Source: Verrucomicrobiota bacterium
GTDB lineage: Bacteria; Verrucomicrobiota; Verrucomicrobiia; Chthoniobacterales; UBA10450
Direction of reading: 5' to 3'
DNA length: 14,106 nucleotides
Assembly (NCBI GenBank): GCA_003221375.1
Contig: QHRI01000064.1
Coordinates: 1-14,106 of the forward strand
A program made the translations under genes and the position numbers. The notes under the pieces are model-generated. The model did not search any database. It was given only the letters and a program-made list of their open reading frames with translations, and had not been told where the DNA came from. Within the stretch, counting starts at the first letter, position 1. Every line of letters starts with the position of its first letter. This document shows positions 832 through 13,935 of the stretch, piece by piece.

Positions 832-1389
832 TCACGCACGCCCCATGTAGGCGCGGGTGCGGGTGTCGATCTTGATCGTTTCGCCTTCCTTGATGAAGAG
901 CGGGACGTTAATGGTCATGCCGGTTTCCAAGGTCGCCGGCTTGGTCACATTGCTCGCGGTGTCGCCGCGCAGTCCCTCCGCGGATTCGGTAACCTTCAGA
1001 CTCACCGACGCGGGGAGCTCAACCTGCACAGGTTTGCCTTCTGCGTAGAGGACCTGTACGGAAAGATTTTCCACCAGGTAATCTTTGGCGTCGCCGATCA
1101 GACTCTCCTGCAACGTGATGGTGTCGTACGTCTCCGGATCCATGAAATGATATCCGTTGCGATCCTTGTAACTGAACTCGAGCTGTTTTCGCTCGATCTC
1201 GACCAGCTCCACCTTATCCGTCGAGCCAAAGCGAACATCTGCGCTTTTACCCGTATTGATGTAACGAATGATCGCCTGCACGAAGGCGCGTAAATTTCCA
1301 GGTGTGCGATGATGGACTTCGAGCACAATGGCGGCGTTACCATTGTATTTGATGGCCATTCCTTTGCGAAGATCGTTAGCTGCGGGCAT
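832..1389 (-). CDS. efp: Elongation factor P with Asn at the loop tip
   Basis: At 185 aa this is the normal EF-P length, and the three-domain pattern is recognisable. The N-terminal KOW-like domain spans about residues 1-65, with LRKGMAIKYNGNAAIVLEVHH. The middle OB domain includes GYHFMDPETYDTITL. The C-terminal OB domain has GLRGDTASNVTKPATLETG, VPLFIKEGETIKIDTRT and ends YMGRA. EF-P binds the ribosome between the P and E sites and relieves stalling at polyproline. The tip of the domain I loop, PGKG in E. coli with the modified Lys34, here reads T-P-G-N32-L-R-A-F. Asn therefore replaces the residue that is lysylated, rhamnosylated or hydroxylated in the best-studied systems. The ATG at 1389 has no strong Shine-Dalgarno. 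The gene lies downstream of kdsD on the same strand, separated by about 150 bp holding a palindromic repeat. Family assignment is near certain. Confidence 0.96.
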   Translation of the reverse strand: MPAANDLRKGMAIKYNGNAAIVLEVHHRTPGNLRAFVQAIIRYINTGKSADVRFGSTDKVELVEIERKQLEFSYKDRNGYHFMDPETYDTITLQESLIGDAKDYLVENLSVQVLYAEGKPVQVELPASVSLKVTESAEGLRGDTASNVTKPATLETGMTINVPLFIKEGETIKIDTRTRAYMGRA

Positions 1390-1490
1390 GATTTCTACGG
1401 GATGATTGGTTAAAAGTTACATCGTTACAACGTAAGCGTCGCAACGGTGACGGGGGACGCGAAGCTTACACGCGCTCGGCGATTTTGCAA

Positions 1491-1546
1491 TTGTAGGGCA
1501 GGCGCATCGCCTGCCTGAATCGGCCACCGACGCGGTCGCCCTACAA
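1491..1546. repeat. Palindromic REP/MITE-like element overlapping the kdsD stop
   Basis: A 56-bp element is bounded by perfect 9-bp inverted repeats, TTGTAGGGC (1491-1499) and GCCCTACAA (1538-1546). An inner perfect hairpin has arms GGCAGGCG (1497-1504) and CGCCTGCC (1508-1515) and a 3-nt loop. The right terminus overlaps the end of kdsD: on the minus strand TTG-TAG, the last sense codon and the stop, lies within the repeat arm. The structure suggests a mobile or dispersed palindrome. It may also act as an RNA hairpin between kdsD and efp. It lacks the T-run of a classical terminator. Confidence 0.6.
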
Positions 1547-2512
1547 TAGTTTCAATCGCGTCAAATCTTGTGAATCGACAATGCCAACAGGCATGCTGTT
1601 ATCATCAACCACGACCAGGTCATCGATGCGATGGCGTTCCAGCAGATTAAGAACTTCAACGGCGAGCTTGTCTTTGTGCACGGTGACGGGGTTCAACGTC
1701 ATTAGATCCGCAACGAGCCGTTCGCCAATCTTCGAATCGAATTGAAAATGCCGCACGAAATCGCCGTGGGTGAAAATACCCAGCAATTTCTGATTTTCGT
1801 CAATTACGACGGCCGCGCCGGCACGTACGCCGGTCATTGCCTTTAGCACGTCGCGAACGGGCGTATCAGTAGAAACAATGGCCATGGCTTCGCGCGGCCG
1901 CATGACTTGATGCACACGCATCAGCATGCTCCGGCCGATCATTCCCCCGGGATGGAACTTCGCAAAATTCTCCTTGTCGAAACCGCGCGCTTCCAGCAGC
2001 ACCATCGCCAGGGCGTCGCCGAGCGCCAGCATCACTGTGGTGCTCGACGTCGGCGCAAGGTTCAACGGGCACGCTTCCTGTTCGATATTGACGTCGAGAA
2101 ACAGATGCGCGTTTTGCGCGAGCGTTGATTCCGCATCGCCGCACATCGCGATAATCCGCACTTGGAATCGGGCGATCGCCGGCAGGATCCGAACCATTTC
2201 TTCCGTCTCCCCGCTTGCGCTCAAAGCAAGCACAACATCGCCATCGGCAATGACGCCTAGGTCGCCATGCAAAGCATTCGAAGAATCGAGCACTACTGCT
2301 GGAGACCCCGTGCTGGTGAGCGTGGCCGCGATCTTCGCGCCGATGTGCCCGGACTTGCCGACGCCCACTACCACGACTTTGCCGCGCGCCTCGATCGTCT
2401 CTTTGATGACTTCAACCGCCCGGGAGAAACTTTCGCCCAGACGTTCCCGCAATCGCTTGAGCTCAAAAATTTCTATGTCCAGGACACGTCCGGCCTTTTC
2501 AAGGTAGTCCAT
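1541..2512 (-). CDS. kdsD: D-arabinose-5-phosphate isomerase, KpsF/GutQ family (SIS + two CBS domains)
   Basis: This enzyme interconverts ribulose-5-phosphate and arabinose-5-phosphate, the first step towards Kdo for lipopolysaccharide or capsule, in the cytoplasm. At 323 aa it has the usual size. The SIS domain (about 30-200) carries VVGVGKSGHIGAKIA (Lys53), the phosphate-binding LSASGETEEM (98-106), EACPLNLAPTSSTT (Glu146) and FHPGGMIGR (His187). These match the Lys, Glu and His residues considered catalytic in E. coli KdsD. Two CBS domains follow: about 204-262 (VMRPREAM...GIFTHGDFVRHF) and about 268-323 (LMTLNPVTV...PVGIVDSQDLTRL). One oddity is that the family stretch HPxEAxHGDLG reads DSSNALHGDLG (76-86), so the His and Glu of HPxE are absent. 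ATG 2512 is used; upstream is ATTATATAG, a possible -10-like box with a very short leader. The stop lies in a palindromic repeat. Confidence 0.93.
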   Translation of the reverse strand: MDYLEKAGRVLDIEIFELKRLRERLGESFSRAVEVIKETIEARGKVVVVGVGKSGHIGAKIAATLTSTGSPAVVLDSSNALHGDLGVIADGDVVLALSASGETEEMVRILPAIARFQVRIIAMCGDAESTLAQNAHLFLDVNIEQEACPLNLAPTSSTTVMLALGDALAMVLLEARGFDKENFAKFHPGGMIGRSMLMRVHQVMRPREAMAIVSTDTPVRDVLKAMTGVRAGAAVVIDENQKLLGIFTHGDFVRHFQFDSKIGERLVADLMTLNPVTVHKDKLAVEVLNLLERHRIDDLVVVDDNSMPVGIVDSQDLTRLKLL

Positions 2513-3128: not shown

Positions 3129-4172
3129 CTACCCATGAGCAAACTGGGCAAAAAACTTTGCCAGCTGCGAACGCGCTGCCTGAAACGAGAGCTGTTCTAG
3201 CGCGCGCTGCTCTGATTCGGCCACAATGGCGCCGCGCAAATCAGCGTTCTTCACTAAATCGAGCGCCATCGAGGCAATCTCAGTGATGGTCCGGCCCTCA
3301 CCACACGTTTTCGAAAATGCAATTCGATCGATCGCGCCGTCGCCACCTACACAGGGTATTCGACAAAGAAGAGCGTCGCCCGCTACCTGGCCTGGCACAT
3401 GGCTGCGATCCAATTGCAACACGATCTTGTGCCGCGCCACATCCCGCAGATAATCCGGATACGGTTTCCGTCTCTCAATGACGCGGAGTTTTTCGTCTGG
3501 AAGTTTCAGCTCAGCCAGCAAACGCCGCGCTCTATTGCCATTCCGATTGACGACGGTGACCGGTTCAGCCGTTGCCTCACACAATTGACGCGCGACCAGC
3601 AGCGCCACAAAATGATTGCGCGATGGTACGTCCCATTCTCGCGTGCCAACATAGATACCGGATTGCTCGTCCGGACGCACACAAAAATTCCATCTCTGAT
3701 CTTCAACAGGATAAGGCGTCGGAATAAACGCGACCCGTCTCAGGCTCCAGCGACTGCTCTGATAGATTTCCATAGCTTCCGGAGTCGTCGCGATGCATCC
3801 TTCCGCTTGCGCCACAATTTTCATGAAGCGCGATAATCTGCCGTAGTCGCACAACTGTTGTGCAATCTGATGGAGTCCGGTTTCCTTTAACGAAACAACG
3901 ACGGTGCGACCGTGTTTTTTCAGGTCCGCTAATGCGCGCTCTGAAGCCCGGAAATCGCCGCGCAAAAGCAGAAGCACGGGCGTTTTCTCTGCTATCGCGC
4001 GACGCGTATCATGGTGAAAAGCTCCCTGCGTACAGGCGGCGAATGCGTGGAAGTTAATCGGCGGATGTGCTCCTTCGCCTGGCGCGGGCAGTTCGCGGAA
4101 CTCCTGTTCCGGATCGCGGCCCTTTGGATTGAGAACGGTCAGTCGAAAATCGTCCCCGCCTTGCGATGTCAT
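3129..4172 (-). CDS. Putative GT-B-fold glycosyltransferase-like protein
   Basis: A 347-aa protein with no signal peptide or membrane segment, so probably cytoplasmic. The best structural hints are a Rossmann-like first half (TPVLLLLRGDF, RTVVVSLKETG, AQAEGCIATTPEAMEIY) and a second half beginning SGIYVGTREWDVPSRNHF (171-188), where GT4-type enzymes open their C-terminal nucleotide-sugar domain. The segment KIVLQLDRSHVPGQVAGDAL to CRIPCVGGDGAIDR (about 249-283) sits where GT4 proteins bind the donor sugar nucleotide, but a textbook ExxxxxxxE motif is not evident. It lies downstream of the class A PBP gene on the same strand, 150 bp away, with a repeat cluster between them. ATG 4172 has no clear Shine-Dalgarno. 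The fold assignment is tentative and the substrate unknown. Confidence 0.6.
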   Translation of the reverse strand: MTSQGGDDFRLTVLNPKGRDPEQEFRELPAPGEGAHPPINFHAFAACTQGAFHHDTRRAIAEKTPVLLLLRGDFRASERALADLKKHGRTVVVSLKETGLHQIAQQLCDYGRLSRFMKIVAQAEGCIATTPEAMEIYQSSRWSLRRVAFIPTPYPVEDQRWNFCVRPDEQSGIYVGTREWDVPSRNHFVALLVARQLCEATAEPVTVVNRNGNRARRLLAELKLPDEKLRVIERRKPYPDYLRDVARHKIVLQLDRSHVPGQVAGDALLCRIPCVGGDGAIDRIAFSKTCGEGRTITEIASMALDLVKNADLRGAIVAESEQRALEQLSFQAARSQLAKFFAQFAHG

Positions 4173-4323: not shown

Positions 4324-6954
4324 TTATTCCTCCGGATCGGCCGGCGGCGGTGTGGTTGATTTCGAGAGGGTTTCATCCTCTCTCTCTTGACCGAGCGGTT
4401 TCACTGGTATTGCACGGCGGATTTCGACTGGTTTCGTATCCTGCGGTTGGACCGGAATTGCTTTCCTGATCTCAGGAGCAGATTCCCCCGTTTGGCTACC
4501 GGATCCGTTGCTGTTTCCGGTGGCGTTGGCCGTTTTCACTGCGCTTTCTCCGGCTGCGCTATCGGTGTTTTGATTTGCGACTGTTTCAGCGGACGACTGC
4601 GGCGCAGGCTCAGGTTTCAATATTGGTTTGAGAGAATTGTAGGGATCCTTGTCAGCTAATAACGTCGGACCTTTTACAACGATTGGCGCGACCTCAGTCA
4701 GATTCACAGCCAATGCAGCGCGCGGCAAATCGCTCGAAGAAAAGAAGCGCGCGAGTCGTGCACGCGGCTCACCGTGGACATTGCAAGGCTCGGTCGGAAG
4801 CTGCGATTGCGTGCCAATCTCCATGTAAGTGGTACGCCGCCGTGCCGTATCGCCGTTCGCCGTTTTGACGGCGTCATAGCATTTGTCAGTGGCAAGTAAT
4901 CCGGATCTCGAACAAATCTCGACCTGTTTCAATCCGCCTGAAGTGGATGTCGGTTGCTTGAGTTCCCGCGGTGGATAGCGGTCAGCCGCGGCATTCATAA
5001 CGTCCACCCAAACAGGCAGCGCCAGTTCGCGCCCAAATGCACCGCGATAAATCTTTTGCGGCTTGTCGAAGCCTGCCCAAACGGCGCAGGTAAAATTGGA
5101 ATCATATCCAGTAAACAACGCATCGGTAAAATCGTATGCGGTGCCGGTTTTACCCGCTGTGGGAATTTTCTTCAGCCCAAACTGTGTGAAGGCAGCTTTT
5201 CCTGTCCCTGATTCAAGCGCGTCTGCGAGGCAGGAATGCACTTCATATGCGGTTTCAGGTTTGATGACGAGCTTCCGAATACTCTCCCGCTTCGCATCCC
5301 AAACTAATGTTCCATCCTTTTCCTCGATGCGCTCCAGAATATGCGACACGTTCGGCCGCCAACCGCCGTTTGGAAATATCGTGTACGCGAGCGCGAGTTC
5401 GGCCAAAGTAACCTCGCTGCTTCCGAGAAATGTGGCCGGATACGGACGAAGAGGCGAGTGAATCCCCGCTGCAGCGCAAAGCTGTAGGACGGCATCAACT
5501 CCCGCGTCCATTCCAATTCGGATACTTGCGCCATTTTTTGACTTGGCCAGGGCTTGTCTTGCTGTCATCGCACCTTCGTAACGGTTCTCGGCGCTTTCTG
5601 GTCCCCATTCTCCCAGAATTCCCGTTGTACCACCGATCATGACTGCGCGATTATCCAGTGGCGAGTCTTCCACCAGAGAGCCGGGATACATTCCTTTTTC
5701 GAAAGCAGCCGCATAAACAAACGGCAACATCGCTGTCCCCGCAGGACGGCGAGCTTGCAGTGCGCGGTCGTATTGGTTGTGTTCAAAATCGCGTCCGCCA
5801 ACCAGCGCCAGAATATCACCCGTTGCATTGTCCAGTCCGATGACGGCGCCCTGGAGGTACTCAGGCGGGGACTGATCAGACGTTTTCCCGTTTGCTTTGG
5901 CCTTGCGGAACAACGCGGCGTACTGGGCGTACGTCTGATGATTGTAATTCGGGCGTTGTTCGACTCGTTCGAGATTCCTGCGCAAGGAATCTTCGGCAAC
6001 CTTTTGAACATCGACATCGATTGTCGTGTGAATCCGATAGCCTTCGTTTATTGCGCGGTCCCATCCAACGGCTGCGATCACCTGCTGACGAATGTAATCC
6101 ACTGCGTAGGTCTGCCCCTGTGCGTTTTGCCGGCTCCCTACAACGATTTCCTGGGCTCGTGCGTTAGAGAATTGTTCGCGGCTGATAAAGCCCATATCGC
6201 GCATGCGATCGAGCGCATAATCCCGCGCTTCGCGTGAGGTGGCCCGGTCGGCCCACGGCGACAATCTATTCGGGCTTTTAATCAGACCTGCCAGCGTGGC
6301 ACACTCTGTCAGAGACATTTCCCGGGCCGGCTTGCCAAAATACCCCCGCGACGCCGCTTCCGCTCCGTAAAGGCCGCCCCCGAAGTAGATCCGATTCAAG
6401 TACAACTCCAGGATTTTCTGCTTGTTGAAGTTGTCTTCAATCCGTTGTGCCAGGAAAATCTCGAGCAGCTTGCGGCGAAATGTTTTTTCTTTGAGTGAAA
6501 AACTGTTTCGCGCCAGTTGCTGCGTAATCGTGCTAGCGCCCTGACGCACATGTCCGGCCGTCAAATTTTTCAGTGCTGCGCGGACGATGCCGAACAAATC
6601 GTAGCCGTGATGTTGATAAAATTTCGCGTCCTCAACGGCGACGACCGCATTAACGAGATCGTGAGGCAACTGGTCGTACGGCACGGTCTCGCGATTCTCG
6701 ACATAGATTTGGCCGAAGATTTTGCCATTGCGATCAAGGATTACGCTCGCTGATTCCATTTGTTCGAGCTTGCTCAGGTCGAACGCTTTCGCCTGCGTTT
6801 TGAGATCGGCAGCCAGACTGGAAATGTAAACGATCACGACAACGACAAGCACCGCAACGATGGCGACGGGGACGTAAAACCACGGTCTTAAATACCACGG
6901 TGGCCGAAAGCGATAGCCCGGCGGGGGCCTCAGATATGTAGCAGTCGGTTTCAA
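4324..6954 (-). CDS. Class A penicillin-binding protein (PBP1A-like) with degenerate transpeptidase motif
   Basis: An 876-aa peptidoglycan synthase. A cytoplasmic Pro/Arg-rich head precedes one membrane anchor (about 27-47). The GT51 glycosyltransferase domain follows (about 75-250), with E108-D in VVAVEDAKFYQHHG, QGASTITQQLARN (138-150), and RKLLEIFLAQRIE with LELYLNRIYFGGG. This part should polymerise lipid II. The transpeptidase domain (about 365-660) retains SKN (472-474) and KTGT (602-605). Where the SxxK nucleophile box belongs it reads RRPAGT407AML410PFVYAAAF, so the catalytic Ser and Lys are Thr and Leu. The periplasmic tail (about 765-876) is low complexity, with a duplicated EIR[KR]AIPV[QK]P motif (828-837 and 844-853). 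The start is TTG 6954, forced because the in-frame TAA is at 6958-6960; there is no clear Shine-Dalgarno. The family is certain. Transpeptidase activity is doubtful. Confidence 0.95.
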   Translation of the reverse strand: MKPTATYLRPPPGYRFRPPWYLRPWFYVPVAIVAVLVVVVIVYISSLAADLKTQAKAFDLSKLEQMESASVILDRNGKIFGQIYVENRETVPYDQLPHDLVNAVVAVEDAKFYQHHGYDLFGIVRAALKNLTAGHVRQGASTITQQLARNSFSLKEKTFRRKLLEIFLAQRIEDNFNKQKILELYLNRIYFGGGLYGAEAASRGYFGKPAREMSLTECATLAGLIKSPNRLSPWADRATSREARDYALDRMRDMGFISREQFSNARAQEIVVGSRQNAQGQTYAVDYIRQQVIAAVGWDRAINEGYRIHTTIDVDVQKVAEDSLRRNLERVEQRPNYNHQTYAQYAALFRKAKANGKTSDQSPPEYLQGAVIGLDNATGDILALVGGRDFEHNQYDRALQARRPAGTAMLPFVYAAAFEKGMYPGSLVEDSPLDNRAVMIGGTTGILGEWGPESAENRYEGAMTARQALAKSKNGASIRIGMDAGVDAVLQLCAAAGIHSPLRPYPATFLGSSEVTLAELALAYTIFPNGGWRPNVSHILERIEEKDGTLVWDAKRESIRKLVIKPETAYEVHSCLADALESGTGKAAFTQFGLKKIPTAGKTGTAYDFTDALFTGYDSNFTCAVWAGFDKPQKIYRGAFGRELALPVWVDVMNAAADRYPPRELKQPTSTSGGLKQVEICSRSGLLATDKCYDAVKTANGDTARRRTTYMEIGTQSQLPTEPCNVHGEPRARLARFFSSSDLPRAALAVNLTEVAPIVVKGPTLLADKDPYNSLKPILKPEPAPQSSAETVANQNTDSAAGESAVKTANATGNSNGSGSQTGESAPEIRKAIPVQPQDTKPVEIRRAIPVKPLGQEREDETLSKSTTPPPADPEE

Positions 6955-7567: not shown

Positions 7568-8842
7568 GTGGGCGAGCTATCTGTAATTTTTCCGGCATTC
7601 AACGAGGAGGGAAATATCAGATGCACGGTAGAAACGATGATTCAGGTGCTCCCAAAGGTCGCGACGAGATGGGAGATCATTGTTGTGGACGATGGAAGCA
7701 GCGACGCGACTGCTCTGATCTGCCAAGAGTTGAAAAGTCAATATCCCGAAGTTGACTTGATTTGCCACCGACAGAACAGGGGATATGGCGCAGCGCTCAA
7801 GAGCGGAATTATGGCAGCCAATTACGATCTAATTTTTTTCTCGGATTCTGACGGGCAGTTCGATTTTCGCGATTTAGAGCAATTAATTTGTTGGTCAGAG
7901 GATTACGATATCGTGGCGGGGTACCGCGCAAAGCGACACGATCCGCTTTACCGCCGAATTAATGCTCTGGGATGGAATGTATTGGTGCGCCTGGTACTGG
8001 GCATCAAAATCCGAGACATCGATTGTGCCTTCAAGTTGTTCCGTCGCTCAGTTTTTGACCACGTCCAAATCAGATGTGTAGGGGCGATGGTCAACACTGA
8101 AATTCTTGCTCAGGCCACACAGCTCGGCATGCGTATACGCCAGGTCAAAGTAAAACATCTACCACGACGCTATGGAAAACAGTCCGGCGCAAACATCCAC
8201 GTCGTAATCAAGGCATTTCGTGAACTGTGTCGGCTTTGGCGGAAGCTTCGCCGGGTGGAACCGAACCAGGCCGGGCTATATTCCGCCACCAATGAAGCGC
8301 CGATCGAAGTAGGCTTTAAACCTAAATCTCCCTCGGCCGGCCTATATTCCGCCACCAATGACCCCCCGATCGAAGTAGGCTTTAAACCTAAATCTCCCTC
8401 ACTTGTTATCTTGCCTCTGACGACGTTCGCCGAGGACTGGATCCGGTGGCTCTTTCCTCGGTTGGAACACGCGCTAGCCACGCTTGTAGCCATGCTGGCG
8501 CTGATATTCCAGGATCCCAAGGCGCCCGCCATTACCGCTAGCGCTATCGTGGCAACGGCGCCGACGGCGTTTGCGCTGGCTCTCGAGCCTAACGAATCGC
8601 CGCCTGATCAATCGCATCCGCAACCGCCCGCGACTGCTCCGACGGCTACACCGCTGCCGCCGCCAGCGCGCGCCGTTGCTGCCTCGACGAGAAAAGCCCG
8701 GATTGCCAAACTGCGGCCGGCGCTGCGGATCCGCCTCGGGAAAACTATCGTGAATGAGTGGCGCCAGGTGAACAATGCGCGCAAGCGCGCACAAGCGGCT
8801 TTTGTTCGGGTAGGTCACAAACCCAGGCACACAATCCATTGA
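7568..8842 (+). CDS. GT2 family glycosyltransferase (DPM1/polyprenyl-phosphate sugar synthase-like) with long C-terminal extension
   Basis: Residues 1 to about 225 form a typical GT-A/GT2 domain: LSVIFPAFNEEGNI (4-17), IIVVDDGSSDAT (37-48) for the nucleotide, NRGYGAALKSGI (70-81), and the metal-binding FFSDSDGQFD (90-99). The acceptor-side segment is DIDCAFKLFRRSVF (150-163). The profile fits enzymes that move a sugar from a nucleotide sugar to polyprenyl phosphate, or a related GT2. After LWRKLRRVEP, where I would expect such an enzyme to end, about 190 extra residues follow. First are two 22-residue repeats (AGLYSATN[ED].PIEVGFKPKSPS, 235-278). Next is a hydrophobic segment (about 299-314, LEHALATLVAMLALIF), then an Ala/Pro-rich linker, then a basic end (about 375-424). 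GTG start with perfect AGGAGG. It is the first gene of the + strand cluster, 75 nt before the phosphatase-family gene. The extension looks repeat-derived. Confidence 0.88.
   Translation: MGELSVIFPAFNEEGNIRCTVETMIQVLPKVATRWEIIVVDDGSSDATALICQELKSQYPEVDLICHRQNRGYGAALKSGIMAANYDLIFFSDSDGQFDFRDLEQLICWSEDYDIVAGYRAKRHDPLYRRINALGWNVLVRLVLGIKIRDIDCAFKLFRRSVFDHVQIRCVGAMVNTEILAQATQLGMRIRQVKVKHLPRRYGKQSGANIHVVIKAFRELCRLWRKLRRVEPNQAGLYSATNEAPIEVGFKPKSPSAGLYSATNDPPIEVGFKPKSPSLVILPLTTFAEDWIRWLFPRLEHALATLVAMLALIFQDPKAPAITASAIVATAPTAFALALEPNESPPDQSHPQPPATAPTATPLPPPARAVAASTRKARIAKLRPALRIRLGKTIVNEWRQVNNARKRAQAAFVRVGHKPRHTIH
8270..8401 (+). repeat. In-frame 66-bp tandem repeat, two copies, inside the GT2 gene
   Basis: Copies at 8270-8335 and 8336-8401 differ at 5 of 66 positions. 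The shared core includes CTATATTCCGCCACCAATGA and CGATCGAAGTAGGCTTTAAA. Because 66 is a multiple of 3, each copy encodes a 22-residue unit ending FKPKSPS. The DNA is far better conserved than coding constraint alone would require, suggesting recent duplication or insertion of a dispersed repeat into the 3' part of the gene. Confidence 0.9.
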
Positions 8843-8916
8843 ATACATTGCCGTCTCTCAAATCAGCGTGCGATGCCGCCTTGCGTACGGGTCGACAAGA
8901 AACGCGTCCACGCGTC

Positions 8917-10284
8917 ATGTTGATAGGACTCGACTGCGCCGCGCCTGAGTTAGTTTTCGATCGCTGGCTTGATGATTTGCCAAACTTAAAGGGTCTCTGC
9001 CGAAACGGGATCTACGGACCGCTACGTTCATGCGATCCCCCTATCACAGTGCCTGCATGGTCGGTGATGATGTCGTCCAAGAGCCCCGGCACACTCGGAG
9101 TTTACGGCTTTCGAAACCGGGCCGATCACTCATACGACCGATACTCGATCGCAAATTCTCTCGCCATAAAAGAGGACCGAGTTTGGGACATTCTTTCGCG
9201 AAATGGGAAACGCTCGATTGTCATCGGCGTACCCGGAACATATCCGCCTCAACCACTCGATGGATTGTTGATCGGAGATTTTCTCACTCCCGATATCACC
9301 TGCAATTACACACATCCGCCCGAACTCAAAGACGAAATCGCGAGTGTCGTCGGAGAATATGTTGTGGATGTGCGGGATTTTCGCTCCGGCAATAAGAAAA
9401 AGGTGCTGGCTGACATTTATGAAATGACCCGTAAGCGCTTCCAGCTCGCCCGCCATCTTCTTGCGAAAGAAGAGTGGGATTTTTTCATGATGGTCGAAAT
9501 GGGCGTCGACCGAATTCATCATGCGTTTTGGGATAATATGGATCCAGCGCATCGCCTGTACGAGGCCGGTAATGAATTCGAGAATGCAATTCACGATTAT
9601 TACGAGGAAGTAGATCGTGAAATTGGCAGGTTGCTCGCCTTCGTCGATGACGGCACGGCTGTGCTCGTCGTTTCCGATCATGGTGCCAAGCGCATGGATG
9701 GCGGCATTTGTATTAATGAGTGGTTGATTGCAAATGGCTATCTCTCCTTAGCTGAACAGCCTGCTAGCCCCGTCCCACTCTCGAAAGCTCGGGTTGACTG
9801 GCCGCGAACAAAAGCATGGGGCGAGGGCGGCTATTACGCGCGCGTTTTCCTCAATGTTGCAGGCCGGGAGCCGAATGGAACCATCGCACCGGAAGATTAT
9901 GAAAAAGTGCGAGAGGAATTAGCGACAGGATTGAAAGCCATCCCCGATGAAAATGGAGAGGTAATCGGGACCAAAGTTTTTCGGCCGGAACAATTGTATA
10001 GAGAAGTGCGCGGCGTGGCCCCCCCGGATGGCGCTAACCATGCGGAGAATGGAATATTCGTTTTCCATCCGGCGGGACAAGGAATTGCGGGTGGGCGCCG
10101 AATCAAACGGCTGCGGATCACGGACATTGCGCCAACAATCCTGCAATTCTTCGGCATACCGGTTCCACACGACATGGAGGGTACCGCATTGACGTGGTCT
10201 TTTGCGGATTCCGTCGGTGACGTGGATTTATCAACGGCCAATACCGATTTGGTCGCTCCTTTCACAACCCTCGCTGCGAAGTGA
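8917..10284 (+). CDS. Alkaline phosphatase superfamily hydrolase (type I phosphodiesterase/nucleotide pyrophosphatase-like), copy 1
   Basis: About 455 aa with no signal peptide or membrane helix, so cytoplasmic. In this numbering, superfamily landmarks are MLIGLD6CA (metal), PPIT44VPAW with SSKSPG (likely Thr nucleophile), EMGVD198RIHH (metal), VVSD254H255GAK (metal) and GANH375AENGIF (third His). Family members hydrolyse or transfer phosphate mono- or diesters using two metal ions. The substrate here cannot be inferred. Start: the frame is open back to GTG 8758, but that would overlap the GT2 gene by 85 nt. ATG 8917 keeps the first beta strand at the N-terminus; TTG 8881 (adding RTGRQETRPRV) is the main alternative. 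None has a good Shine-Dalgarno. Its TGA overlaps the next start by 4 nt, implying translational coupling with a homologous partner. Confidence 0.87.
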   Translation: MLIGLDCAAPELVFDRWLDDLPNLKGLCRNGIYGPLRSCDPPITVPAWSVMMSSKSPGTLGVYGFRNRADHSYDRYSIANSLAIKEDRVWDILSRNGKRSIVIGVPGTYPPQPLDGLLIGDFLTPDITCNYTHPPELKDEIASVVGEYVVDVRDFRSGNKKKVLADIYEMTRKRFQLARHLLAKEEWDFFMMVEMGVDRIHHAFWDNMDPAHRLYEAGNEFENAIHDYYEEVDREIGRLLAFVDDGTAVLVVSDHGAKRMDGGICINEWLIANGYLSLAEQPASPVPLSKARVDWPRTKAWGEGGYYARVFLNVAGREPNGTIAPEDYEKVREELATGLKAIPDENGEVIGTKVFRPEQLYREVRGVAPPDGANHAENGIFVFHPAGQGIAGGRRIKRLRITDIAPTILQFFGIPVPHDMEGTALTWSFADSVGDVDLSTANTDLVAPFTTLAAK

Positions 10285-12014
10285 AGAAACACCCGAAAGC
10301 AGTCATCATAGGTTTGGATGCGGCGACGTGGACGCTCATCCGTCCCTGGATCGCCGAAGGCAGCATGCCAAACCTCGCAAAATTAATGAGAGTCGGTGTA
10401 GCCGGATCCCTCCAATCCGTTCTTCCGCCAATTACTCCACCGGCATGGACATCATTCATGACTGGCAAAAATCCTGGTAAGCACGGCGTCTTTCATTTTG
10501 TCGAAACCGAACGGGACGGTTACGAGATGAATTACGCCAACGGGGCTTCACGCCGCTCACCTACCATTTGGAAGTTACTCAATACTGCTGGGTTCTCCGT
10601 GGGTACTATGAATATTCCGTTTACGTACCCGCCCGAGACGTTGAAAGGGTTTCAAATCTCCGGCTTGGATACACCAACACCGAACAGTCCGTTCGTCTAT
10701 CCGCCCTCACTCAAACGCGAACTGGTCGATCATTTCGGCAAAATTAAGCATGACGTCCGCTTCCTTGGATTCATGTCAACGGATCGGCGCCGCGCGCAAG
10801 TTCTTTGCGAAATGGAAAAAATCGACCGGCAATGGGCGGCGATCGCTCTTTACCTCCTCGAACATCATCCACAGGACGTGATGATGTTCGTATTCATGTC
10901 GATCGATACCGTCCAACACTATTTCTGGCAGTACATGGATCGTAGTCATTTTCTTTACGATCCGAAGGCGAAACCTCTGTTCAGAAATGCAGTACGTCAG
11001 GTGTACGAACGACTCGATGCGGTGACCGGTGAGCTAATAGCGAAGCTTCCGGCCGATACGAGTGTGTTGGTAGTTTCCGACCACGGTGGCGGTCCGGTCG
11101 TTGATCGCACGCTGTTCCTAAACCGTTACCTGCACCAACTTGGCCTGTTACACTACCGCAAAAATGCACGTCGCATCCGATTACCAAGACTTGGCCTGGG
11201 TAAGATGTGTTCCAATATCCTGCGAGGCGGTTTTTCACTGCTGCGTCGGTCGCTCTCTTCACGCCAGAAGGCTTTTCTTGCGGAACTATTCCCTGCTCTA
11301 AGAAAAAGAGCAGAACTCGCTTACACGTCATTTCAAGACATCGACTGGAGTCGCACCAAAGCATACTGCAGCGAAGTGCTCGCCTCGCCACCGAGCATCT
11401 GGATCAATCTAAAAGGCGCAAAGAGCCGAGGAATTGTGGACCCAACCGAGTATGCGACCCTGACGGACTTTATCATTGAGAAATTGAAAGACCTGAAAGA
11501 TCCGCGCACCGGCAAGTCAATAATCGCTCGTGTTTATCGACGCGACGAAATCTTCCACGGTCCATTTTCCGACGAAGTCGCCGACCTCATCCTCGATTGG
11601 TGGAGCGAAGATAGCCTTTTTTCGACACAGCCAAGTTTCAAAAAGGACAGGAACAAACCGCCGGTTATCATTCGTGAGCATCGCCCATCAGAAGATAGCG
11701 AATGGGGCGGTACGCACAGGCGTGATGGAATTCTAATCGGCCGAGGGCCTATGTTGAAAACTGCTGCCGAGATCGACAATGCACAGTTGATCGATCTCGC
11801 TCCGACGCTGCTCTACATGCTCGGCGTGCCTGTACCGGAAGATACGGACGGCAAAGTTCTATCGAGCGCCTTCCGACCGGAATTCCTTGCTGCGCATCCG
11901 CTTCAGACTGGCGATGCTTCTGGCATTTCCGAGGCGAATCGCACCAGCGGTTATACGGACGAAGAGTCAGCCAAAGTCGAAGACCGCCTCCGGGCCCTGG
12001 GGTATCTCGAATAA
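10281..12014 (+). CDS. Alkaline phosphatase superfamily hydrolase (type I phosphodiesterase/nucleotide pyrophosphatase-like), copy 2
   Basis: A 577-aa paralog of the preceding protein, started by GTG 10281 in a GTGA overlap with its stop. Landmarks in order: AVIIGLD13AA (metal), PPIT52PPAWTSFMTGKNPG (predicted Thr nucleophile and following helix), MSID209TVQH213YFW (metal), VVSD267H268GGG (metal) and GGTH479RRDGIL (last His ligand). It has no signal peptide or membrane segment. Relative to copy 1 it carries a longer, basic insert (about 290-345, with RRIRLPRLGLGK) before SRTKAYCSEV. It ends in KVEDRLRALGYLE, a C-terminal tail style I associate with other members of this superfamily. Two adjacent divergent copies suggest related but distinct substrates or a heteromeric complex. 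Neighbouring glycosyltransferases point to sugar-phosphate or lipid-linked substrates (inference). Confidence 0.9.
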   Translation: MKKHPKAVIIGLDAATWTLIRPWIAEGSMPNLAKLMRVGVAGSLQSVLPPITPPAWTSFMTGKNPGKHGVFHFVETERDGYEMNYANGASRRSPTIWKLLNTAGFSVGTMNIPFTYPPETLKGFQISGLDTPTPNSPFVYPPSLKRELVDHFGKIKHDVRFLGFMSTDRRRAQVLCEMEKIDRQWAAIALYLLEHHPQDVMMFVFMSIDTVQHYFWQYMDRSHFLYDPKAKPLFRNAVRQVYERLDAVTGELIAKLPADTSVLVVSDHGGGPVVDRTLFLNRYLHQLGLLHYRKNARRIRLPRLGLGKMCSNILRGGFSLLRRSLSSRQKAFLAELFPALRKRAELAYTSFQDIDWSRTKAYCSEVLASPPSIWINLKGAKSRGIVDPTEYATLTDFIIEKLKDLKDPRTGKSIIARVYRRDEIFHGPFSDEVADLILDWWSEDSLFSTQPSFKKDRNKPPVIIREHRPSEDSEWGGTHRRDGILIGRGPMLKTAAEIDNAQLIDLAPTLLYMLGVPVPEDTDGKVLSSAFRPEFLAAHPLQTGDASGISEANRTSGYTDEESAKVEDRLRALGYLE

Positions 12015-12031
12015 TCGACCTACTAACCAAT

Positions 12032-13277
12032 ATGTTTGAAATCGACGCCTCAGCCGGATCCAACGTGAAAACTGCACCGTATCCGCCGATCGGAGCACAA
12101 CGCTATTCGATCGCCATGGTTGCAGCATGCCCATTCCCTGCTAATCACGGGTCGGCGGCAAGCATTCGAGAGATGTCCGACACGCTTTCGCGGATCCAAA
12201 CTTCACAGGACCGGCCCATTTCGGCCTGAGACGAACGCCAAAGTCGGGCCCTCGCCGGAGAAATTCCGGGAAGATTTAGCCCTGTTTCGATTGCTCAGCC
12301 GCGTCATTAAGCGCGAACGGATCGATATTATTCACGCGCATAACTATGAAGGCGCGCTAATCGGGGTCATGGCAAAATTGATCACCCGTCGTCCACTGCT
12401 TTACAATGCTGTGAACCTGATGTCTGACGAACTCGCGGGATACCGTTTCATTCGTCCTCCGTCCCTTGCTCGTGCTATTGCGCGCGGACTCGATTGGTTC
12501 GTTCCAATTTTCCCTGATCACATCACCGCAGTTTCCCCCGAGTTGAAGCGGTGGTTTGTGAAGCGCGGAATCGCCGAACGAAAAGTGGATATGATCCCTG
12601 CGGGCATCGTTCCTGAGATGTTCGATAATCCGGATCCAGAAAAGATCCGTCGCCGTCATCAAATTGATGGTGGTGCGATCATTATGTATACGGGCGTCTT
12701 GAATGCCTTCCAGAGAATCGACTACCTGCTTCGCGCTTTTTCAGTCGTTTCAAAGCAGCTACCCGATGCCCGATTGGTGATGGTGAGCCCGCTGGTCTCC
12801 GAATCGCACGAAAAAGAACACAAAGAGGCAGCAGAGCGCCTCGGTATTTCCGATTCCATCATGTGGATTGCTCCCCATTCGCTCGAAGATTTGCGGAATT
12901 ATCTCGCGCTCGCCGACGTGACGGTGATTTCGCGCCCGGAATGCCCGGGGCATCCGGTCAAATTGTTGAACTACATGCTGGCAGGAAAGCCGATTGTTTG
13001 TTTTGAAGGCGCAGCCAAAGGCCTGCGCCATTTGCACGACGCCTTAATCGTGCGTGATCACGATTGCGAAGCGCTCGGCAACGGGATTGTCACATTGCTG
13101 AAGGATCGCGAGCTGGCTGTCCGTCTCGGAGCAAACGCACGCGCAACCGTGCTTGCTAATTTTGATTGGCGAATAATTTGCCGGCGGATCGAGAGCATTT
13201 ACCAACGATTGCTCGGAAAACCAGAATCCTGCGGCATTCAAAATAAACACCATGCGTTTGCACGGCTGCCATCCTGA
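12032..13277 (+). pseudogene. GT4 family glycosyltransferase, frameshifted near the N-terminus
   Basis: The N-terminal part is read from ATG 12032: it reaches RYSIAMVAACPFPANHGSAA and IREMSDTLSR, the typical first strand, loop and helix of a GT4 enzyme, then stops at TGA 12227-12229. The rest is in another frame, from about 12198 (KLHRTGPFRPETNAKVGPS) to TGA 13275-13277. It includes DIIHAHNYEG, TAVSPELKRWFVKRGI, VDMIPAGIVPEMF, MYTGVLNAFQRIDYL, APHSLEDLRNYLALADVTVIS, and the donor-site segment CPGHPVKLLNYMLAGKPIV. The second-strand region expected between DTLSR and the HR segment (about 20 residues) is missing. A deletion of 3n+2 nt near 12191-12200 would explain both the gap and the frame change. 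An ATG at 12120 opens the second frame, but its first 25 or so residues are an out-of-frame reading of the conserved N-terminus, so a 385-aa product from there is unlikely to fold normally. A sequencing or assembly error is the alternative. Confidence 0.8.
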
Positions 13278-13935
13278 TCCTTTTCATGCCGTGGCTTCGC
13301 CAGTCGCACACACTCTCGCCGGGTTTTGGACATTTCTGCTCCTAACTGCTCGTTCGAAGCTGCTGCTCATCGCCGCTTGCGTCCGTTATCTGCCGCAGCT
13401 TATTTTGCTGGTCCTGCTTGCGAATTTGCCTGACATCGATTTTCTCTTCGGCCTTGGCGACCGCGCAAATTGGGACGCCTTCCATCATGGGTTTACGCAC
13501 AGCTTCGTAGCAGCATTTGTTGTCGCGTTTGCTGTCACCTGCGTGTGGCGGATGGCTGGGAGCTTTTGGCGAAGCTTTAGTCTTTGTTTTTTGGCGTACA
13601 GCTCACATCTCCTGATCGACTTCTTCACCGGCACGAAGCTTGGATGGAATTCGACTGGCTCTGGCATTCCTCTATTGTGGCCTTTGGCGAAGGAATTCGG
13701 CTCTCCGCTGATACTTGTTGTCGGGGTCAAACATAAGGATTTTCCCGCGCTCTTCAGTTTGGCAAATCTCCAGTCGAGCCTGTATGAGCTTTTGGTTTTT
13801 GGCGTATTCACAGCAGCTCTGCTGGTGGCATGGCTACGGCATCAGAAAAGTCGAGGCGTGTCTCACCAGCCGCAAACGCCAGCGCGTGCTGTCTACAACT
13901 CCAACTCGATGCAATCCAATGAAAGAATCCCCTAA
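13252..13935 (+). CDS. YdjM/DUF457-like inner-membrane metal-dependent hydrolase
   Basis: A 227-aa polytopic membrane protein with four or five hydrophobic segments. It has the His/Asp pattern of the membrane-bound metal-dependent hydrolase family: ASPVAH20TLAG, LANLPD61ID63F, FHH79GFTH83SF, and SSH119LLID123FFTG, followed by SGIPLLWPLAKEF. The reaction is unknown for most members; it is probably hydrolysis at or in the inner membrane. ATG 13252 overlaps the broken GT4 frame by 26 nt. GTG 13291, giving MASPVAHTLAG, is an equally good start because homologs commonly begin at that motif, and no Shine-Dalgarno decides. The C-terminal 30 residues are polar and look disordered. It overlaps the next gene by 17 nt and so belongs to the same transcription unit. 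Confidence 0.8.
   Translation: MRLHGCHPDPFHAVASPVAHTLAGFWTFLLLTARSKLLLIAACVRYLPQLILLVLLANLPDIDFLFGLGDRANWDAFHHGFTHSFVAAFVVAFAVTCVWRMAGSFWRSFSLCFLAYSSHLLIDFFTGTKLGWNSTGSGIPLLWPLAKEFGSPLILVVGVKHKDFPALFSLANLQSSLYELLVFGVFTAALLVAWLRHQKSRGVSHQPQTPARAVYNSNSMQSNERIP

Follow-up and report, generated by a model that had tools for sequence, protein, structure and literature searches.

In the window, i.e., the whole stretch of 14,106 nt analyzed here, we identified a gene for a class A penicillin-binding protein (PBP) in which the nucleophile box S-x-x-K of the transpeptidase (TP) domain is replaced by Thr-Ala-Met-Leu. Based on comparison of its sequence with those of its relatives, we consider it likely, with a probability of roughly 80%, that this 'T-type' PBP is a glycan polymerase whose pseudo-transpeptidase is kept as a scaffold or docking module, with cross-linking performed in trans.

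The reverse complement of positions 5725-5736 reads ACAGCGATGTTG, i.e., the codons ACA GCG ATG TTG, the first of which is residue 407 if the TTG start is counted as residue 1. A first-pass annotation had placed Thr407-Ala-Met-Leu410 at the SxxK position, with RRPAG and PFVYAAAF as flanks, SxN at 472-474 and KTGT at 602-605, and all of these were found in the window DNA as claimed, SxN being SKN. Its statement that the box can be aligned unambiguously also holds, as GTAML lands on GSSFK (4oon) and GSTIK (3udf) in a sequence alignment to solved PBP1a chains; since this alignment puts the box on SxxK, the register is secure, and a frame or alignment slip was ruled out. Pfam detected a GT51 domain at residues 77-251 (PF00912, 210.5 bits) and a Transpeptidase domain at 369-627 (68 bits, above the cut-off). 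In agreement with the annotation, the GT51 motifs are intact, with the catalytic residues E108, D109, Q138, G139, R161, and K162 in columns that are invariant among 59 aligned sequences. The NCBIfam model TIGR02074 (PBP_1a_fam) scored 519.4 against a cut-off of 508.75. An AlphaFold2 model revealed a mean pLDDT of 75 (below 50 in the loop 442-447), and its best Foldseek matches are class A PBPs, the best one in the PDB being E. coli PBP1b (5hlb, full-length, E 7.6e-40). Thus, judged by fold and GT51, the window protein belongs with the class A PBPs, of which it has the GT51 catalytic motifs, the transpeptidase fold behind GT51, and the SxN and KTG motifs. The SxxK feature of that class is absent (TAML), so that classifying the protein as bifunctional is not warranted, though the PBP1A model takes it. 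With its full TP domain, it also falls outside the MtgA type, defined as GT51 without a transpeptidase domain. One of the nearest named relatives, from a Candidatus Udaeobacter MAG, is 91% identical to the window protein. Coordinates are listed in Table 1.

Table 1. Features of the T-type PBP gene and its downstream neighbor in the window
Feature	Position	Strand	Basis
T-type class A PBP gene, 876 aa, TTG start	4324..6954	(-)	ORF, TIGR02074, fold match PBP1b/PBP1a
N-terminal helix, residues 24-57, putative membrane insertion	6784..6885	(-)	AlphaFold2 model
GT51 glycosyltransferase domain	6202..6726	(-)	PF00912, invariant catalytic columns
Degenerate transpeptidase domain	5071..5850	(-)	PF00905
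Thr407-Ala-Met-Leu410 replacing S-x-x-K	5725..5736	(-)	DNA reading, alignment
Signature D434-NRxVMIGGxxGILGEWGxE-453, clade-specific, with short insert lacking a counterpart in the intact paralogue	5596..5655	(-)	
SxN motif Ser472-Lys-Asn474, intact in the window protein; GKN or SKI in many relatives	5533..5541	(-)	
KTGT motif (602-605), intact in the window protein	5140..5151	(-)	
Tail motif copy 1, EIRKAIPV, C-terminal	4450..4473	(-)	
Tail motif copy 2, EIRRAIPV, C-terminal	4402..4425	(-)	
347-aa ORF directly downstream of the PBP	3129..4172	(-)	without Pfam or NCBIfam match

Neighboring genes in the window (832-2512, minus strand; 7568-13935, plus strand) encode elongation factor P, a SIS+CBS protein of the sugar-phosphate isomerase type, a family 2 glycosyltransferase, two type I phosphodiesterases, a group 1 glycosyltransferase, and a YdjM-like protein. 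The 347-aa ORF adjoins the PBP gene in 22/22 loci of the family examined, several genomes being counted twice and three assigned to the family by similarity, and in 0/33 other loci.

The altered box turned out to be a property of a whole subfamily. When the window protein was aligned with its 120 best database matches, all 121 rows had Thr407 and Leu410. A larger alignment of 355 rows (301 distinct 120-aa cores) comprised the window protein, 240 database proteins (the best 120 matches of each of two queries at 90% clustering, not a random set), and 114 genome genes, whose ORFs were read stop to stop and six of which duplicate a database core. Here, residue 407 is Thr in 348 rows, Ser in 6, and Val in 1, while Lys410 is missing in 337 and retained in 18, its place otherwise being taken by L, T, V, I, F, A, G, Q, or H; a T..K box occurs in 15 rows. 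Counted on distinct cores, the figures are 294 Thr, 6 Ser, 1 Val, and 18 Lys410. Thus, the check proposed in the first-pass annotation, whether T-x-x-L marks a conserved subfamily, gave a positive result, with a fourth position that is mostly not Lys. The other motifs are retained to differing degrees: Lys473 is kept in 352/355 rows and Lys602 in 346/355. Among Udaeobacter-like rows, SKN is present in 121/121, KTG in 119/121, and KSG in 2/121, K-x-G thus being complete (121/121). The Akkermansia relatives mostly have T..L, Asn474 of SxN is replaced by I, V, or C in 120/120, and the Lys of KTG is lost in 7/120; in rows from the rest of the order, Ser472 is changed to Gly or Ala in 38/55. Named Haloferula and Akkermansiaceae records carry the boxes TAFH and TAFF.

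Within the sample of the window's order, 70 of 77 genomes had a match to the window PBP that was similar at subfamily level and longer than 550 aligned residues. The other seven were two genomes of 0.9 Mb each without any match (G067 and G076), one with the paralogue only, and four with fragments. The box could be read in 69 of the 70 (67 Thr, 2 Ser), and all 13 sampled families of the order contain a T-type PBP, as does Akkermansia. Outside Verrucomicrobiota, class A PBPs had S..K in 63/63 cases, these being the best-scoring among the matches listed and not a random set. The 17 Verrucomicrobiota among 80 named loci revealed 13 Thr, one truncated locus, and three S..K, the latter belonging to two paralogue-type proteins and locus L196. 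Surveys at class level (37/76 genomes matched by the window protein at E <= 1e-3) and at phylum level (20/145 Verrucomicrobiota genomes with any match to a T-type query, E <= 1e-40) showed that the T-type subfamily is not phylum-wide.

For 66 class A PBPs, a careful tree was calculated with the box columns excluded. In it, the 42 T-type rows, assigned beforehand by similarity and not by box, formed one clade (support 100/100); intact paralogues, fused proteins, and proteins from other phyla lay outside. A quick tree of 103 rows agrees (T-type clade of 65 rows, SH-aLRT 91). According to these trees, the clade covers the window's order, probably Chthoniobacterales to judge from named relatives, together with Akkermansia and its kin. 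The fewest changes on the 66-row tree were five at the nucleophile position and seven for Lys/not Lys. An S-x-x-K box in close relatives, which the first-pass annotation had regarded as evidence against its reading, was not seen near the window and was limited to 3/355 rows on two distant branches. These rows, L163 and L164 (genus g38) and L196, have SKN and KTGT, carry the insert of the T clade, and nest inside it at two places, so that the shortest account has one early Ser-to-Thr change followed by two later returns. As a possible source of the three rows, gene conversion from the intact paralogue was also considered. Residue 451 is Ala in exactly these three rows and Gly in the other 352. 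Three further rows with Ser407, all from Akkermansia, kept Leu410 and Gly451, and Ala451 therefore tracks S..K and not Ser alone. A volume swap between positions 407 and 451 (Thr+Gly vs. Ser+Ala) was considered and fits the S..K rows, but not the Gly451 of the three Akkermansia Ser rows. The pairing of S..K with GEWA amounts to two independent co-occurrences and is suggestive only.

Selection on the TP domain was assessed against the intact paralogue in 17 genomes with both PBPs (136 pairs; G105, G109, and G179 omitted). TP-to-GT distance ratios had a median of 1.12 for the T-type PBP vs. 1.21 for the paralogue, the T-type value exceeding that of the paralogue in 62/136 pairs, and the mean entropy of TP sites was 0.96 vs. 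0.95 bits (261 sites). Sites newly free in T-type proteins include 410 and 472. Those newly fixed form the block DNRxVMIGGxxGILGEWGxE (434-453) between the nucleophile box and SxN, which holds a five- to six-residue insert missing from the paralogue. The 114 genome rows of the alignment had been picked by this insert signature, and residues 434, 449, and 450 are testable only on the other 241 rows; in all 241 of them, D434, E449, W450, G451, and E453 are present. Altogether, the altered TP domain is under ordinary constraint and not decaying, which fits the earlier suggestion that retention of the whole domain points to a structural or regulatory role. As in a pseudo-enzyme, the fold is kept (examined in the window protein), the catalytic residues are lost across the clade, the domain is constrained, and an intact-looking paralogue occurs in related genomes carrying both PBPs.

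This second class A PBP, the existence of which the first-pass annotation had suggested checking, is present in genomes of the window's genus, family, and order and has S..K, SRN, and KTGT. It is about 640-750 aa long, and in Akkermansia about 860-940 aa. It was not found in the window's own assembly, which is 59% complete in 455 contigs and contains one GT51 gene. The assembly does harbor two other transpeptidase genes, both class B-like with intact boxes, one (MEPGSTFK/KTGTAQ) beside a gene that by eye looks like murE and the other with PPGSTFK/KTGTAQ, as well as a SEDS gene fragment at a contig end. In Akkermansia, a third GT51 protein of about 605-613 aa (L183, L184) was observed, with an even more degenerate TP part (GELFTP or GDLFTP, without KTG).

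Furthermore, we identified fusions of GT51, a degenerate class A TP domain, and a complete PBP2-like class B PBP in a neighboring lineage, Methylacidiphilales/Verrucomicrobiota (L165-L168; P0242-P0361), mostly about 1,240-1,440 aa in length. In the set of 119 fused proteins, from which P0274, without GT51, was dropped, the first TP domain has neither the Lys of SxxK (0/119) nor that of KTG (0/119), and the second, class B domain has its Ser and Lys in 119/119. Since the degenerate TP domain of these proteins is not nested in the T clade, they represent an analogy and not the same loss. Even so, they show the arrangement proposed here within a single chain.

The C-terminal tail of the window protein carries two copies of a short motif that is shared with other proteins. 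A degenerate DNA pattern for E[IV]R[RK]AxPV matched 38 places in eight genomes of the family, compared to one place for the backward control (loci beyond window positions 4402-4473, minus strand: L001; L327-L362). The places were assigned by reading ORFs, two T-type and one FtsI-like by coordinates, and Pfam was run on a single example of each class B type, of the RodZ-like protein (HTH_25), and of the TPR protein. Of the 38 places, 28 fall into T-type PBPs (10), FtsI-like (7) and PBP2-like (4) class B PBPs, and a RodZ-like membrane protein (7), and the other ten into a periplasmic TPR protein (4), a secreted protein (1), one small membrane protein (2), and ORFs of no clear meaning (3). Nine further genomes, two from the same family and seven from other families in the order, yielded 14 places (backward control: 3), namely five T-type tails, one class B PBP tail, five after signal-peptide-like starts, and three unclear. 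In the order, 47 T-type tails were counted as complete, and 24 of them matched the motif strictly. Of the 23 that did not, seven are truncated at the end of the locus; among the other 16, about ten have near variants, e.g., EVRRAEAI, as judged by eye. E[IV]R[RK]AxPV is missing from 118/120 Akkermansia T-type proteins. A related motif, IPxAEP[VL], was detected at 27 places in four Akkermansia genomes (L363-L389; control: 0), distributed over the intact class A PBP (6), PBP2-like (6), OmpA-like (12), and deacetylase-like (1) proteins and short ORFs (2), the OmpA-domain and deacetylase-like names being given by eye. The shared tail motif hints at a docking signal to partners. Since it is mostly missing from Akkermansia T-type proteins and sparse in other families, docking by this motif cannot be general. 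Near the ends of the intact paralogue (L055, L064, L068) and of a third class B PBP (L318-L321), we observed a stretch resembling F-[FRE]-x-[LF]-F-G, possibly a second pairing signal.

From these observations, we propose that the T-type PBP is a membrane-anchored GT51 enzyme that would polymerize glycan strands. Its TP domain would be an old pseudo-enzyme in which the nucleophile Ser was changed to Thr and Lys was lost in most of the clade with the fold kept, and it is predicted not to acylate with stem peptides or beta-lactams, in line with the loss of penicillin binding and DD-transpeptidation expected in the first-pass annotation. It may be kept as a scaffold or docking module, perhaps with a site for non-covalent peptide binding, and Thr407 perhaps serves as a helix N-cap. 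Class B PBPs and the intact class A paralogue would form the cross-links of its glycan in trans, and the shared periplasmic tail motif may bring the T-type PBP to these enzymes. A counterpoint to a dead TP site is that SKN and K-x-G are intact in all 121 Udaeobacter-like rows, which is more than such a site would need. Activity may also persist or have returned in the 18 Lys410 rows, including the three S..K rows with SKN and KTGT.

Other readings have to be weighed against that of a polymerase with a pseudo-transpeptidase. The most serious one, which we nevertheless regard as improbable, is that Thr407 acts as an unusual nucleophile with another base, e.g., Lys473 or Lys602, in a slow, beta-lactam-insensitive transpeptidase. 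The much greater steadiness of Thr407 (348/355) than of Lys410 (18/355) and the conservation of both candidate bases are in its favor, and it is least unlikely in the 15 T..K rows. It is opposed by the variety of residues replacing Lys410, by the loss of Asn474 in Akkermansia, and by the Gly or Ala at position 472 in most rows from the rest of the order. In beta-lactamases, moreover, a Ser-to-Thr change at the nucleophile abolishes activity. Very unlikely, in our view, is a TP domain that is a functionless, decaying relic retained through its joining to GT51. The uneven loss of catalytic residues across the T clade would fit such a relic, as would the many listed Akkermansia-like homologues without precomputed PF00905. 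Against this, constraint on the domain is not relaxed in comparison with GT51 or the intact paralogue, and the domain contains a new invariant block and occurs in Akkermansia as well as in each of the 13 sampled families of the order; a simple relic was rejected on the distance ratio and the entropy comparison.

Even less credit is given to selection by soil antibiotics for a beta-lactam-insensitive polymerase. A site without an acylating Ser is predicted not to bind penicillin, and the habitat of the group is soil, but the clade at whose base the change sits also contains gut Akkermansia, and related genomes retain PBPs of classes A and B with SxxK that are still targets in principle. The incompleteness and fragmentation of the window's assembly would leave room for an artefact of sequencing, assembly, or binning, or for a mutation confined to one MAG. 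This account is refuted by relatives with the same box: the TAML-type box is found in 121/121 nearest proteins from several sources, and Thr extends across other families, leaving it a negligible probability. Going beyond the preferred reading of a polymerase with a pseudo-transpeptidase, we offer a tentative scenario, which we hold to be possible though rather doubtful. The ancestor of the order and Akkermansia may have given up cross-linking in one class A PBP, and the GILGEWG insert may have rebuilt the TP domain as a non-covalent module coupling polymerization to class B PBPs and RodZ. The tail code (E[IV]R[RK]AxPV; IPxAEPV on other Akkermansia wall proteins) would serve as an address label, and two branches would have switched back independently (S..K with GEWA).

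Akkermansia muciniphila is listed among bacteria with a classical wall and class A PBPs in the part of PMC8406291 consulted, and among those with a classical wall in that of PMC5814848; these parts do not mention a missing active site. Among the papers listed in a full-text search of the openly accessible journal literature, there was no description of the T-type subfamily or of the fusion. Class A PBPs are taken as bifunctional, and annotation models name the window protein accordingly. A clade spanning an order and Akkermansia seems to have uncoupled polymerization from cross-linking with the domain retained. T-type PBPs may thus be regarded as natural separation-of-function proteins that offer a route to a non-catalytic role of the TP domain, with two apparent natural reversals available for comparison. 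The tail motif may help to learn how the polymerases and the cross-linkers of the wall come together.

With the PBP1A family (TIGR02074; E. coli PBP1b, A. baumannii PBP1a 3udf), the window protein shares the N-terminal helix, GT51, the TP fold, SKN, and KTGT. It differs from that family by lacking the Ser nucleophile and the general-base Lys, by the extra insert DNRxVMIGGxxGILGEWGxE, and by a long tail with EIR[RK]AIPV motifs. In predicted activity, i.e., glycan polymerization only, it resembles monofunctional GT51 enzymes (MtgA/SgtB). While MtgA has no transpeptidase domain, the window protein keeps a complete one under constraint. The Methylacidiphilales/Verrucomicrobiota fusions likewise join GT51 to a degenerate class A TP domain, but have their own degeneration (A-L-L-Q, G-N-x, G-M-P-G), carry a complete PBP2-like enzyme behind it, and lie outside the T clade. 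Finally, Staphylococcus aureus PBP2 works with PBP2a under beta-lactams, so that a class A glycosyltransferase is combined with transpeptidation by another PBP. While the site is chemically blocked in that case, it would have been lost in evolution in the T-type PBP.
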